From: Methylacidimicrobium fagopyrum
GTDB lineage: Bacteria; Verrucomicrobiota; Verrucomicrobiia; Limisphaerales; UBA11358
Direction of reading: 5' to 3'
NCBI GenBank assembly: GCA_026225255.1
Contig: JAMFSJ010000074.1
Coordinates: 1 to 64,000 of the forward strand
DNA: 64,000 bases
A model generated the notes under the pieces. It worked only from the letters and a program-made list of their open reading frames with translations. It did not search any database and was not told the origin of the DNA. Position 1 is the first letter of the stretch; each line of letters begins with the position of its first letter. Position numbers and translations under genes: made by a program. Of the stretch, positions 3,485 through 7,956 are shown piece by piece.

Positions 3485-4996
3485 TCACGCTGCGCCTTTC
3501 AAACTATCATCCGAATCTTTGATGACGAAACGCGCCCGGAGACGCGCGACTTCGCTGGCGAGGCCGGCGAGACGCACAGAATTCAACACTTCATTGAAAT
3601 CCTTGTAAGCCGCCGGCGCTTCGTCTTTCGGATACGTGCGACAGTTGGACATGACATCGTGCGCCACGAATTCATCATCAATCGTTTTCTGATCAAGTTC
3701 GCGGATCGCCGCTTTGCGGCCTTTGGCGCGGCCGGCACCGTGGTTCACGCTGAAACAACTTTTCTCCGCACCTGCATCCGCCACCATCACGCAAGAACCG
3801 GCTGTCGGATTGCCGGGCAATAAAATTGGATGTCCGGTTTCGTAAAAGGGCGTGTCCTTCAGCGCGAAATGGTTCGCTGGATACGCGCGCGTCGCCCCTT
3901 TGCGATGCACCCAGCATTCCTGGTTCGCCACGATCTCGCGGCGCGCGATGTTGTGGCTGATGAAATACACCAGCTTACCGCGCGTGCCGGGGATGATTTC
4001 CTGAAACGCCTCCAGCACGAGCGCGTTGATAAGCATGTGATTCACGGTCGCAAAATTCGCACCGAGCGACATGTCATCAATGTAATCATCCGCTTCCTGT
4101 GTGCCGAGCGGCGCATAAACGAGTTCCCGATCATTGCCGGGCAGGGGAATGCCCCACGCGGCAAATTTACTTTGTAACGTGCGGAACTGTTCGTTCGCCA
4201 AGGCGTAACCGAATCCGCGCGAACCGCAGTGCGAAAGAAACGCCACGCAGTTATCCCGCAAGCCAAATACTTCGGCGGCGCGGCGAGCGCGGTCGTTATT
4301 CGCAATCGTCACGGCTTCGCATTCGCCAAAATGATTGCCGCCGCCATAGGAACCGAGCTGGCGGATCTTGTCCTCGAACTTCGGAAAGCGTCCGGCATTG
4401 ATGAGTAAATCGAGCCGCACAGCAAGGTCATCGCGCTGGTTATTGTGGCCGACGTGAAATGCGTCTTCGCAGTGGGCCGCCCATTCCGGCGGAATACCAA
4501 GCTCACGGCAGACAGCGGCGGACGCACCCTCGATCGCCACGCGACGGCCAAGTTCGGCATTCACATTGCGGCTCTTTTTAACGTTGCGCTGGCCTTTGCC
4601 TGCGCCGGTCGGCGTGCGTTCGACGATGGCGTTGATGAGCGCGCGGCGAATGGTTTTATCCGCCACGGCTTCCGTCGGTAAATCGAGTTGGAGCAGGCTC
4701 ATGGAACATTTGATGTCCACCCCGACCGGGCCGGGATAAACATGCGTCGGCGAAACGAGCACGCAGCCGACCGGCGCGCCATAGCCGCAATGCGCGTCGG
4801 GATTGAGCACGAGATCGGTCACGCCCGGTGCGCCGCGCGAATTAAGCGCCTGCTCAATGCATTTCGCATCGAACGTTTTGCGGATGGCTTCCGTGCCGAT
4901 GACGGTGATCGGCTTGCCCTGATTGCCCGGCGCGGGGATAAAGCCGGTGGCTTCGCCCGTGGGCTGGATCAATGAGGCGGTGGTTTCTGGATTCAT
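3485..4996 (-). CDS. rtcB: RtcB-family RNA ligase
   Basis: The 503-residue protein has all hallmark RtcB motifs: NPDAHCGYG (66-73), GVDIKCSMS with metal Cys97, GGGNHFGE (His222), SHCGSRG (His256), FISHN (His348) and NHGAGR, whose His419 is expected to carry GMP. RtcB joins 2',3'-cyclic phosphate (or 3'-P) ends to 5'-OH ends in GTP- and Mn-dependent steps and repairs cleaved tRNA or rRNA. It is about 95 residues longer than the E. coli enzyme, with extra sequence in the middle and at the C-terminus. The ATG at 4996 follows an AT-rich stretch without an SD site. It is the last gene of a sigma-54 operon with a slipin and is controlled by the divergent rtcR. No RtcA cyclase is present. Confidence 0.95.
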   Translation of the reverse strand: MNPETTASLIQPTGEATGFIPAPGNQGKPITVIGTEAIRKTFDAKCIEQALNSRGAPGVTDLVLNPDAHCGYGAPVGCVLVSPTHVYPGPVGVDIKCSMSLLQLDLPTEAVADKTIRRALINAIVERTPTGAGKGQRNVKKSRNVNAELGRRVAIEGASAAVCRELGIPPEWAAHCEDAFHVGHNNQRDDLAVRLDLLINAGRFPKFEDKIRQLGSYGGGNHFGECEAVTIANNDRARRAAEVFGLRDNCVAFLSHCGSRGFGYALANEQFRTLQSKFAAWGIPLPGNDRELVYAPLGTQEADDYIDDMSLGANFATVNHMLINALVLEAFQEIIPGTRGKLVYFISHNIARREIVANQECWVHRKGATRAYPANHFALKDTPFYETGHPILLPGNPTAGSCVMVADAGAEKSCFSVNHGAGRAKGRKAAIRELDQKTIDDEFVAHDVMSNCRTYPKDEAPAAYKDFNEVLNSVRLAGLASEVARLRARFVIKDSDDSLKGAA

Positions 4997-5197: not shown

Positions 5198-5953
5198 TTA
5201 AAACGCCGGATTCGGTTGTGCCAAGGGCACGAATCCCGTTGGCAACCCCATTACCAGCGTATTGCCGGACGCGCCGATGGACTGCATCAGGCGAAGATTT
5301 TGTAAGGCGGGATTGTTCTCCAACAATCGCGCGGCATTCGCGAGATTTCGCAATGCGGCACTCTCGCCCCGGGCTCGTTCCAAGGCCGCCTGACCTTCCT
5401 GTTTCGCCTTCAATACTTCAGTGAAGACCTTCTTCAAATCGCCCGGGAACATCACGTCTTTGACCTCCGTCGCATGCACCGTGATTCCGACCTTTTCGGC
5501 TTCCGGCTGAACGTCGGCCAGCATTTCTTTCCCGATATTGAGCCGTTGCGCGAGCAATGCCTCCATCGGTTGCGCCCCCACGAGGGCACGCAATGCAAGT
5601 TGAACTGTGTTATAGACCTGGGCGCGCCAGTCTTGCACTTCATGCATGGCCTTGAGCGGGTCAGTCACTTGGACCGTTACCGTCAGGCTCACTTTCAACC
5701 CGATGCCTTCAGCACTCAATACTTCCTGACTAGCGACCGGAAAAGTTTGTTTGCGGAGATCCACCTTCGTGAGCGCGTAGCCAAATCCCCAGCGACTGTG
5801 ACGTCCGGCTTCGAGCCGGGTCTGAAACTTCCCGTGCCGGTAAAGCAGTCCGCATTCAAACTCGCGGATCACGAACCAATTGTGGAAATTGGGCGTTTTG
5901 ACCGGTTCGTTCGAGTTCATATTCCAGTTCATCGTTAGCAAGTCCATGTTCAT
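5198..5953 (-). CDS. Slipin / SPFH (band 7) protein of the RNA-repair operon
   Basis: SPFH-domain protein of about 251 residues. It has the typical beta-rich start (FECGLLYRHGKFQTRLEAGRH), the LRKQTFPVASQEVLSAEGI stretch, and a C-terminal helix rich in Ala, Glu and Arg (LKAKQEGQAALERARGESAALRNLANAARLLE). Slipins are membrane scaffolds that oligomerise and are recurrent partners of RtcB and RtcR in bacterial RNA-repair operons. A longer frame opens at 6007, but its first 18 codons overlap a 14-bp RNA stem, so the ATG at 5953 (or 5947) is preferred. No transmembrane helix is evident. The role is inferred from the operon. Confidence 0.85.
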   Translation of the reverse strand: MNMDLLTMNWNMNSNEPVKTPNFHNWFVIREFECGLLYRHGKFQTRLEAGRHSRWGFGYALTKVDLRKQTFPVASQEVLSAEGIGLKVSLTVTVQVTDPLKAMHEVQDWRAQVYNTVQLALRALVGAQPMEALLAQRLNIGKEMLADVQPEAEKVGITVHATEVKDVMFPGDLKKVFTEVLKAKQEGQAALERARGESAALRNLANAARLLENNPALQNLRLMQSIGASGNTLVMGLPTGFVPLAQPNPAF

Positions 5954-5973
5954 AGTTAAGTTTTTTATTGGCT

Positions 5974-6177
5974 GACATCCGGCAACCACCATTGGCAGCG
6001 GGAGCAAATTCGCATTCGCTCACAGGCTGTTGCGTGGCTGCGTATTTACGCGGTTACCGGATGCCATCCGTTTGATGGGCTTCGAACCCAGCGGTGTTTA
6101 GACCGTTCCAGTTACCGAGTCCCAATGCGCAGAACCAAGTCAGATCATTTCCAACTGGCTGCTGGTTCGATTCGGCA
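5974..6177 (-). ncRNA. Structured tRNA-like leader RNA of the slipin-rtcB operon
   Basis: The predicted transcript start to the slipin ATG is about 220 nt, and most of it folds. It contains a T-arm mimic, TGGG-TTCGAAG-CCCA (6089-6075), with the TTCGANN loop. Before it lies a CGGT-CTAAAC-ACCG hairpin, placed like an anticodon arm. Beyond it a 14-bp stem (6065-6052 with 5987-5974, GU pairs included) closes over two further hairpins (GCGT-AAAT-ACGC, and an 8-bp stem at about 6020-6001). This resembles bacterial Y RNAs (YrlA type), which mimic tRNA and sit in enterobacterial rtcBA operons. No Ro60/Rsr gene lies in this window. The fold was made by eye. Confidence 0.45.
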
Positions 6178-6187
6178 AATATCCAAT

Positions 6188-6204
6188 CGCAACCGCCGTG
6201 CCAA
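6188..6204 (-). promoter_or_regulatory. Sigma-54 (-24/-12) promoter for slipin-rtcB
   Basis: The minus strand reads TTGGCACGGCGGTTGCG. This matches the sigma-54 consensus YTGGCACGRNNNTTGCW at every fixed position except the last. Spacing between the GG and GC elements is correct, placing +1 near 6177. RtcR is a sigma-54 activator, so promoter and regulator agree. Confidence 0.9.
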
Positions 6205-6336: not shown

Positions 6337-7956
6337 ATGAATGTTAAGAAACGGGTAGTGATTGGCCTGCTTGGCAGCGTGTTGGACTATGGCTTTCATC
6401 AGGAACGCTGGAATAAGTGGCGTCCAACCGTTTCATTGTGCAAGCATCCGGAGTTGCCGGTTGACCGCTTTGAATTGATTTATGATCCCAAGTTCAAAGA
6501 TTTGGCGAATGTGGTCATGGCAGATATTTCAAACGGCTCGCCCGCGACCGAAGTTTGCGGCACGACCCATGTGTTTCGCGATCCGTGGGATTTTGAAGAG
6601 GTTTATGCTGCGCTGCATGATTTTGCGCGTGGTTATGAATTCAAGCCGGACACGGAAGAATATCTCGTCCACATCACAACCGGTTCGCACGTGCAGCAGA
6701 TTTGTCTGTTCTTGCTGACCGAATCACGGCATTTCCCGGCGCGGCTGGTGCAAACTTCGCCGGCGGACGCCAAACGTCGCGGGCCGGAAAGCAAGTTCAC
6801 GATCATAGATCTCGACCTTTCCAAATACGACCGCCTCGCCTCGCGTTTCGGCAAGGAGCAAATGGAAGCGCGCTCGTTTCTCAAGTCCGGCATTGCCACG
6901 CGCAACGAACGTTTCAATCAGCTCATCGAACAAATTGAACACGTCGCGATCCACGCAAAGGAGCCGATTTTATTGACCGGACCGACGGGCGCGGGAAAAT
7001 CCCAGCTTGCCCGGCGCATCTACGAATTGAAAAAATCGCGACATCAAATTGGCGGCGATTTTGTGGAAGTGAATTGCGCCACGTTGCGCGGCGACGGCGC
7101 GATGTCGACCTTGTTCGGTCACCTCAAAGGCGCCTTCACCGGTGCGTTGAAAGATCGTCCCGGCCTGTTGCGCGCGGCTAACGACGGTCTACTTTTCCTG
7201 GATGAAATCGGCGAACTCGGATTGGACGAACAGGCGATGTTGCTCCGCGCCTTGGAAGACAAACGCTTTTTACCCTTCGGCGGCGACCGCGAAGTCAGCA
7301 GTAATTTTCAACTGATCGCCGGCACGAATCGCGATCTACAACTCGCCGTGCGTGATGGCCGTTTCCGCGAAGATTTATTGGCGCGAACCAATCTGTGGAC
7401 TTTTTCGCTGCCCGGTTTGCGTCAACGCCCCGAAGACATTGAGCCGAATCTGGATTACGAGCTGGAACAATTCGCCCGCAAACACAGCCAGCGCGTCACG
7501 TTGAGCAAAGAAGTGCGCGAAGATTTTCTGAAATTCGCTAAGTCGTCGTCGGCCAAATGGTCGGCAAATTTTCGTGATTTGAACGCCTGCATCACCCGCA
7601 TGGCAACGCTCGCGCCCGGCGGTCGCGTGACGCCGCCGGTTTTGATTGAGGAGATCGCGCGCTTAAAAGCGAGTTGGTCAACGCCCGTCGCCGAAGACGA
7701 TCACGCAGCGGTGTTGGCCACGGTGCTCAATGATCGGGTGCGGGAGAAACTGGATTTATTTGATCAAGCGCAACTGGCCTTCGTCATTCGGATTTGTCAG
7801 GAATCCGCGACGCTCTCCGACGCTGGCCGAAAATTATTTGCCGCGACGCGGGAGCATCGTAAAACTGCCAACGATGCAGATCGCCTGCGCAAATATTTGG
7901 CGCGTTTCGATCTCGATTGGTCGGAGGTAAAACGCGCAGTGACTTCGGTTGGATAA
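6337..7956 (+). CDS. rtcR: RtcR, CARF-domain sigma-54 activator of RNA repair
   Basis: This 539-residue protein has the RtcR layout. Residues 1-185 form a CARF-like sensor (start KKRVVIGLLGS; ligand-loop segment HITTGSHVQQ at 112-121). A sigma-54 AAA+ domain follows, with Walker A GPTGAGKS (215-222), the GAFTGA sigma-contact loop (265-270), Walker B LLFLDE (285-290) and an arginine-finger region (FREDLLARTNLW). A C-terminal domain completes it. In Salmonella the CARF domain senses broken RNA with cyclic-phosphate ends and switches on the rtc operon. Here it faces slipin-rtcB, whose promoter has an exact -24/-12 element. Confidence 0.95.
   Translation: MNVKKRVVIGLLGSVLDYGFHQERWNKWRPTVSLCKHPELPVDRFELIYDPKFKDLANVVMADISNGSPATEVCGTTHVFRDPWDFEEVYAALHDFARGYEFKPDTEEYLVHITTGSHVQQICLFLLTESRHFPARLVQTSPADAKRRGPESKFTIIDLDLSKYDRLASRFGKEQMEARSFLKSGIATRNERFNQLIEQIEHVAIHAKEPILLTGPTGAGKSQLARRIYELKKSRHQIGGDFVEVNCATLRGDGAMSTLFGHLKGAFTGALKDRPGLLRAANDGLLFLDEIGELGLDEQAMLLRALEDKRFLPFGGDREVSSNFQLIAGTNRDLQLAVRDGRFREDLLARTNLWTFSLPGLRQRPEDIEPNLDYELEQFARKHSQRVTLSKEVREDFLKFAKSSSAKWSANFRDLNACITRMATLAPGGRVTPPVLIEEIARLKASWSTPVAEDDHAAVLATVLNDRVREKLDLFDQAQLAFVIRICQESATLSDAGRKLFAATREHRKTANDADRLRKYLARFDLDWSEVKRAVTSVG

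Follow-up and report, generated by a model that had tools for sequence, protein, structure and literature searches.

We analysed a structured RNA that lies upstream of a slipin gene in a window of 64,000 nucleotides from Methylacidimicrobium fagopyrum (assembly GCA_026225255.1, contig JAMFSJ010000074.1, positions 1 to 64,000). The slipin gene is divergent from rtcR, which encodes a CARF-domain sigma-54 activator, and shares its operon with the RNA ligase gene rtcB. By sequence comparison, the slipin transcript should begin with an RNA of about 200 nt that mimics the tRNA elbow, and this RNA and slipin stay together as a unit across bacterial phyla. The locus is organized as follows:

6337..7956, plus strand: rtcR, CARF-domain sigma-54 activator (PF06956, 3.4e-80; NF038308, 796 bits for a cut-off of 650)
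6189..6203, minus strand: sigma-54 promoter TGGCACG-N4-TTGC, divergent from rtcR, 0 mismatches
~6180-5968, minus strand: leader RNA, upstream of slipin, between the divergent rtcR and slipin
5198..5953, minus strand: slipin (Band_7/SPFH; PF01145, 8.6e-30), no evident N-terminal membrane helix
5028..5165, minus strand: decayed relic of the tRNA-mimicking Y RNA YrlA, between slipin and rtcB (RF02553, 15.7 bits, E 5.7, gathering score 69)
3485..4996, minus strand: rtcB RNA ligase (PF01139, 3.4e-97)

The −24/−12 box of the sigma-54 promoter (TGGCACGGCGGTTGC, 6203-6189) is the sole match with at most one mismatch in a pattern scan of the window, but the pattern alone is not significant because 2.7 such matches are expected by chance. 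Among 294 related genomes, 40 have an RtcR match, and 34 neighbourhoods were read (the window and 33 others); 6 genomes with a weak RtcR match (E 1e-10 to 4e-6) fall outside these 34, and some neighbourhoods end upstream at contig ends. Slipin adjoins rtcR in seven of the 34 (the window and our loci L032, L033, L044, L045, L053 and L061; the slipin reading frame of L061 is split), and in all seven the −24 box stands at a constant offset of 41-46 nt before the GCAG of the first arm of the RNA, P1. From the position of the sigma-54 site, the transcript should start near 6180. This gives an untranslated leader of about 225 nt up to the slipin ATG at 5953, in line with the roughly 220 nt claimed by a sequence-only reading of this stretch; a start downstream of the structure, which that reading had named among the observations that would speak against it, is not indicated by the sequence. 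With its divergent rtcR and −24/−12 promoter, the operon would belong to the sigma-54 regulon of RtcR. The minus strand of 6182-5951 folds at −83.3 kcal/mol (z −4.03); its dinucleotide shuffles, 200 in number, give −65.6 ± 4.4, and not one folds as well. The plus strand of 5974-6187 gives a z of −2.37.

From 5' to 3', the RNA is made of P1, a GG element, a variable hairpin, a T-arm and a long stem P4 carrying hairpins P5 and P6, followed by a gap and the slipin start codon. In the window, these parts are:

6112..6179, minus strand: P1 arm, a variable outer stem and an inner hairpin CCA-GCAG-CC..GG-UY-CUGC conserved in 7 loci (64.2 bits with covariance model R1, of which it is a seed)
6162-6159 with 6132-6129, minus strand: pairing of GCAG with CTGC in the P1 inner hairpin
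6108..6116, minus strand: D-loop-like GG element (CGGTAACTGG), from sequence
6092..6105, minus strand: anticodon-arm-like hairpin CGGT-CTAAAC-ACCG, adjoining the T-arm
6076..6090, minus strand: T-arm mimic TGGG-TTCGAAG-CCCA
5968..6093, minus strand: 3' domain matched by covariance model R2 (63.7 bits, E 7.4e-18; the window is an R2 seed)
~6067-5973, minus strand: P4, long stem with two nested hairpins
6051-6040, minus strand: hairpin P5
~6030-5995, minus strand: hairpin P6, with the UG.../CCG internal loop of the family

The T-arm mimic, the anticodon-arm-like hairpin and the long stem with nested hairpins described in the sequence-only reading were thus all located on the minus strand, which supports its proposal of a structured, tRNA-like RNA transcribed as part of the slipin-rtcB operon under sigma-54 and RtcR. 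Across the family, the gap between RNA and slipin start codon has a median of 25 nt, with the middle half at 19-33 nt (75 start codons picked by script, several of them doubtful). ARAGORN found no tRNA at the leader in the window, and neither ARAGORN nor RF00005 a complete cloverleaf; Rfam gave no match there at the gathering score, and at E ≤ 10 no family of Rfam 15 matched the leader, with no T-box, riboswitch or known leader among them. For 12 related loci, tRNAs alone were matched at the gathering score, and the leader of L102 gave, at E ≤ 5, a single match on the opposite strand (E 2.4). Except for a tRNA in L090, Rfam 15 thus had no family to offer for the leader or for the relatives that were searched.

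The elbow of a tRNA is putatively mimicked by a TTCRA loop on a G-C stem (6090-6076) with a GG upstream (6116-6108). The T-arm motif was found in 67 of 78 slipin upstream regions, as against 1.7 after shuffling; on the opposite strand it is in 18 of the regions, a number to be read with the near self-complementarity of the motif. Its GGTTC, A and CC are invariant in 36 aligned sequences. The GG element is present in all 31 sequences tested, a weak test since 18.8 are expected after shuffling. In L090, the Rfam tRNA model RF00005 matches inside the RNA with 41.5 bits (gathering score 29), and the leader of L073 (genome G156) contains an evident, nearly whole tRNA body (AGTAGCTCAGTGGGTAGAGC ... 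GCGGGTTCGACTCCCGC). These two leaders, and the position of the RNA directly 3' of predicted tRNA genes in seven loci (L079, L087, L089, L090, L140, L145 and L157, with L158 as a duplicate of the last), are what one would see if the RNAs were degenerate tRNA genes caught upstream of slipin with no function of their own. We consider this hardly credible, as it is contradicted by the compensatory changes described below and by the branched P4-P5-P6 domain common across phyla.

Covariation was measured on an alignment of 36 domains running from the T-arm to the end of P4, taken from 66 found by a T-arm regular expression and a fold-span filter. Its consensus holds 32 pairs, 29 of which changed on both sides. 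Paired cells amount to 90.2%, compared with 68.6 ± 0.9% in shuffled alignments, and the covariation score is 0.681, compared with 0.257 ± 0.013; neither value was reached in any of 500 shuffles. Shifting the partners by 1-3 columns destroyed the signal, a one-column shift lowering the score to 0.21-0.23. The 3' domain therefore passes the covariation check that had been proposed for the leader. For the P1 inner hairpin, 35 of 42 arms were aligned; L147 was omitted at typing, and another 6 were set aside because they were near duplicates, did not fit the expected pairing or fell out of register. Only pairs 27-29 of this alignment are informative, because the regular expression that found the arms itself demands GCAG/CTGC-like ends. 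Among the 35 sequences, the informative pair 28-51 is C-G in 25, G-C in 6, U-A in 1, U-G in 1 and unpaired in 2. Three P1 pairs changed on both sides, no excess over shuffles (152 of 500 reach this number), while the covariation score is 0.329 against 0.150 in shuffled alignments, with none of 500 reaching it.

Two covariance models were used to follow the RNA: R1, built from the seven rtcR-slipin leaders, and R2, built from the 3' domains of 36 seeds; the window is among the seeds of both. R2 loses its specificity below about 38 bits: matches in that range are mostly tRNA or tmRNA genes, which reach up to 37.3 bits (L220). Over the 34 RtcR sources, R1 scores the seven slipin loci at 61.8-69.9 bits and everything else at 17.6 or less. 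Likewise, the motif GCAGYC..GGTYCTGC is present in all seven rtcR-slipin loci and in none of the 27 other RtcR loci (the rtcR start of L064 was guessed for this check; L064 is covered by the whole-locus R1 scan).

The association with slipin extends far beyond rtcR. A slipin-protein scan of a species-genome collection gave 82 loci, the best 80 of 132 relatives and 2 viral contigs. R1 matched 31 places in these loci at E ≤ 2, all upstream of slipin and on its strand. R2 placed the RNA upstream of slipin on the same strand in 74 of the 82 at E ≤ 2.3e-5 (35 seeds and 39 non-seeds, of which L158 repeats the seed L157) and in 5 more at E 0.005-0.055. In two of the last three, L094 and L100, the sequence includes nothing upstream of slipin; the third, L154, lacks the N-terminal half of slipin and shows no RNA. 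According to record titles, carriers at E ≤ 1e-4 include Verrucomicrobia, Chloroflexi, Omnitrophota, Obscuribacterales and other cyanobacterial kin, Planctomycetes, Armatimonadetes, Gemmatimonadetes, Elusimicrobia, Acidobacteria, Nitrospinota, Actinobacteria, kin of Bacillus (Fictibacillus, Mesobacillus), proteobacteria (Sedimenticola, Caulobacteraceae, Hyphomicrobium) and myxobacteria (Anaeromyxobacter, Archangium). A Methylobacterium slipin that is 37% identical gave a 24.8-bit RNA match at the expected place, and none of 7 distant plasmid slipins (27-30% identical) taken as a control has the RNA. Besides slipin, no cluster of neighbouring genes recurs in more than 13 of 81 loci (L158, a copy of L157, being omitted). 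That the RNA exists and is linked to slipin we regard as practically certain; its conserved fold, its covariation and its place just upstream of one slipin clade are features of the aligned sequences. The window, itself a seed, shows the full set of P1, T-arm and P4/P5/P6 just upstream of slipin.

Whole genomes were also scanned without slipin as bait. With more than 40 genomes, the scans ran under stricter filters that let true copies escape. In Bacillota, the known copy in G324, the centre of that scan, went undetected, and the R2 scan of the order missed G254, G246 and G156, all positive by R1. The phylum counts are therefore lower bounds. Over the order, R1 matched in 9 of 320 genomes, two places being new (G305, G156), and R2 matched at E ≤ 1e-4 in 21 of 320. 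Slipin follows the RNA in all 13 of the order matches L197-L209 (39.9-86.9 bits), nine of which were already in the slipin set and four new (L197, L203, L205, L206); six further matches are slipin loci already read (L161-L163, L165, L167, L171), L210 (29.5 bits) overlies a tRNA-Ser, and three matches (37.1, 32.4 and 29.5 bits) fall outside the locus reading. In other phyla, R2 matched in 9 of 249 Bacillota genomes (L211, 49.7 bits, with slipin; 7 other matches read without slipin, 6 of them over tRNA genes), in 19 of 329 Pseudomonadota genomes (L172 and L226 with slipin; 18 others read without, 15 over tRNA-Ser or tmRNA genes) and in 17 of 194 genomes of the cyanobacterial phylum (G911, G328 and G331 with slipin; 15 others read without, 13 over tRNA or tmRNA genes). 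True copies thus number at least one new in Bacillota, at least two in Pseudomonadota (one being the known centre G329) and at least three in the cyanobacterial phylum (two known), and the new ones, L211, L226 and L238, all have slipin. Altogether 53 weaker matches were read without slipin or mini-slipin, and 44 of them lie over predicted tRNA or tmRNA genes, as judged on a fixed stretch per locus. When the whole genomes of 21 known carriers were scanned, the slipin copy ranked first among the R2 matches in 18 (once tied, in G321); among the matches listed for G254, G246 and G330 there were only other, weak ones, their own loci being positive by R1 (L061, L053) or weakly by R2 (L149).

The sequence-only reading had tied the RNA to rtcB. 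It accompanies slipin instead: in the stretches read, rtcB was seen in only 14 of the 82 slipin loci and in none of the other 68, some of which end at contig ends. The same count speaks against the idea that the RNA is a processed decoy or sensor working with RtcR, RtcB or a tRNA nuclease instead of slipin, which would only ride on the transcript. The T-arm and GG mimicry would suit such a role, and RtcR senses tRNA fragments (PMC7790460), but the linkage is to slipin, and we judge this idea improbable.

Where neither rtcR nor a tRNA array is present, TATAAT-like hexamers concentrate 21-30 nt before the P1 inner hairpin (7, against 0-1 in any other bin, in 20 loci), so that P1 should open the transcript in these loci as well. 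In several loci the RNA and slipin lie in or near long tRNA arrays (L087, L088, L079, L083, L157 and others), several with rtcB nearby. A slipin scan of viral contigs gave two loci that share a tRNA array and the RNA (L157, L158), each with 19 predicted tRNAs. PMC10272220 describes one Anabaena repressor that controls the slipin gene alr0740, rtcB and a 26-tRNA array, induced under translation stress. The genes controlled by this repressor, TrcR, include an HNH endonuclease. An HNH-like endonuclease gene, named by eye, precedes the RNA and slipin in L073, where slipin has an internal deletion that leaves a 98-aa frame keeping both protein ends and rtcB follows; in L154, the truncated slipin also seems to follow an HNH-like gene, again named by eye. 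A phage origin of the module was considered and rejected: a scan of viral contigs for the sigma-54 and P1 pattern returned 3 stretches that R1 did not confirm as true copies, and tblastn of the window slipin against phage records gave only 2 HflK-like matches. Membership of a known defence system was likewise rejected, RtcR being the sole PADLOC match among 5 proteins scanned.

The operon of the window differs from those of its close relatives. G043 (same genus), G225, G237 and G120 carry Rsr, the bacterial Ro60, and about four tandem matches to YrlA between rtcR and rtcB. No TROVE (Rsr/Ro60) match was found in the source genome (86% complete), which bears out the earlier statement that no Ro60/Rsr gene is present. 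The YrlA relic at 5165-5028 keeps a 3' half with D-arm (AGCTCAGTTGGTAGAGC), its 5' half being different; it aligns with the rtcB-proximal YrlA (80.5 bits) of G043 at the equivalent position, and its 3' half also aligns with the last YrlA of G225. Judged by gene order and this relic, slipin and its RNA occupy the operon slot held by Rsr and YrlA in close relatives and replace Rsr and tandem YrlA in the window. Rsr-type loci have short leaders, with the ATG about 50 nt after the −24 box (L040, L042, L050) or about 100 nt (L059). In G120 (L050), Rsr-YrlA-rtcB has close to it a separate slipin and slipin RNA, convergent to rtcR; with both modules, this genome may represent an intermediate stage of the replacement. 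In G182 (contig C12) and G153 (contig C447), separate TROVE genes accompanied by YrlA-like matches stand away from rtcR.

The tRNA mimicry, the place in an rtcB operon and the relic might suggest that the leader is itself a divergent Y RNA of the YrlA family. We rejected this candidate, as Rfam at the gathering score and RF02553 at E ≤ 10 gave no match over 5968-6187, the relic being the only, weak, match. Moreover, Rsr is absent from the genome at its 86% completeness, the RNA is linked to slipin rather than Rsr, and G120 has both modules as separate things. Kinship with YrlA is thus very improbable; the likeness noted in the sequence-only reading holds as an analogy of position and tRNA mimicry, YrlA being a tRNA mimic (PMC7790460).

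To our knowledge, the function of bacterial slipins and stomatins, which are old and widespread membrane-scaffold proteins, is largely open. An AlphaFold2 model of the window slipin (mean pLDDT 74.9) has among its matches the stomatins of human and Pyrococcus horikoshii, HflK/C, prohibitin and, lower in the ranking (rank 48), the major vault protein, which has an SPFH fold. The proteins matched by this predicted model are ring or cage formers. The slipins adjacent to rtcR (window, L077, L078, L082, L084, L085, L099, L135) may be soluble, because they lack the N-terminal hydrophobic stretch that is found at 63 of 75 scored starts. The slipin of L091, whose rtcR is 2.7 kb away, has this stretch. 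Of the 12 low scorers, 8 have no link to rtcR, and some of these score low through doubtful starts.

We propose that the RNA acts in trans, as a co-transcribed partner of a slipin oligomer that would work on tRNA damage in the manner of Y RNA and Ro60. Every functional step of this scheme is one we infer. The RNA would be matured from the slipin transcript or remain on it, and would be to a ring- or cage-forming slipin what Y RNA is to Ro60. The T-arm and GG element would imitate the tRNA elbow, so that the RNA could scaffold, gate or act as a decoy for damaged tRNA and tRNA nucleases. In the window, cut tRNAs would activate RtcR, which binds them by its CARF domain (PMC7790460), and sigma-54 transcription would supply the RNA, slipin and the RtcB ligase together. 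The linkage to slipin, the positional swap with Rsr and YrlA, and the tRNA body in L090 support the proposal, which we hold to be plausible while stopping just short of even chances. A broader version, which we consider less likely than not and offer as speculation, gives many phyla a ribonucleoprotein in which an SPFH (stomatin/vault-shoulder fold) ring or cage is joined to a dedicated RNA that mimics tRNA. This would be a second particle comparable to Ro60-Y RNA but unrelated to it; it would handle or guard damaged tRNA and would have replaced Ro60-Y RNA in RtcR operons, there with a soluble, anchorless slipin.

Several observations weigh against the trans-acting partner. The tRNA-repair role is an extrapolation from a minority of loci, because of the low count of slipin loci with rtcB nearby. 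The anticodon-arm-like hairpin is missing or different in part of the family, the leader of L061 lacks the T-arm part, and the T-arm of L053 is altered. No copy of convincing score unlinked to slipin was found in the whole-genome scans; together with the constant 5' place and the promoter-proximal start, this also fits a cis-regulatory leader. Such an RNA would be a tRNA-like operator that binds slipin, a T-arm-recognising factor or a damaged tRNA competitor and sets translation or transcript stability, much as the thrS operator mimics tRNA. It would be expected to lie always in the 5' untranslated region at a short distance from the start codon, and to start with P1 at sigma-54 and TATAAT-like promoters alike, as is the case here. 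Against it, no run of T follows P4 in the window, and the ribosome-site test revealed no expression platform and no sequestered ribosome site. Native RNA even leaves the start region slightly more accessible than shuffled RNA does (0.437 against 0.386, native higher in 24 of 35, p 0.012, a weak test), and protein-binding operators do not usually keep one architecture across so many phyla. Cis-autoregulation is the main rival, to which we give a tentative rather than an even chance. We prefer the RNA-partner model because the slipin model resembles rings and cages, because of the links to tRNA stress and because the ribosome site is not closed.

A conserved RNA before one slipin clade offers a direct handle on bacterial slipin function, and the RNA, its tRNA mimicry and its promoters under stress control suggest a part in the quality control of RNA or tRNA. 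The exchange of Rsr and Y RNA for slipin and its RNA in an rtcB operon is a natural replacement experiment that bears on the function of Ro60/Y RNA. We found no description of a slipin-linked RNA in the open literature, and an earlier description may exist in papers outside that search; the main texts of two structured-RNA surveys mention no slipin, SPFH, Band 7, stomatin, tRNA-like or RtcB.

Among known systems, YrlA (RF02553) with Rsr/Ro60 is alike in being a tRNA-mimicking RNA encoded with a protein in rtcR/rtcB operons, in the equal slot in close relatives. The slipin RNA differs in having no RF02553 match, an SPFH rather than a TROVE partner gene, a place at the 5' end of the transcript, whereas YrlA forms tandem copies after rsr, and a T-arm that continues into a long branched stem. 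With tRNA and tmRNA (RF00005, RF00023), whose genes are the main false positives of R2, it shares the T-arm with TTCRA, the D-loop-style GG and, in L090, a tRNA body; in contrast, the RNA of the window has no regular acceptor stem, carries the P1 and P4 domains and escapes ARAGORN. T-box and other tRNA-sensing leaders are similar as 5' leaders with a tRNA-related logic, but the slipin leader has no Rfam T-box match and no T run after the long stem, and the gene it precedes does not serve aminoacylation. An ornate RNA is paired, genetically or physically, with a membrane or cage protein in the cases of OLE RNA and OapA and of vault RNA and the major vault protein. The slipin RNA resembles both pairs in this respect, and the vault pair also through the SPFH fold, though it matches no Rfam family. 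Lastly, PMC13086221 describes PaFlo8, a Pseudomonas aeruginosa SPFH gene lying among rtcR, rtcB and rtcA; like the slipin gene of the window, it is embedded in an rtc locus.
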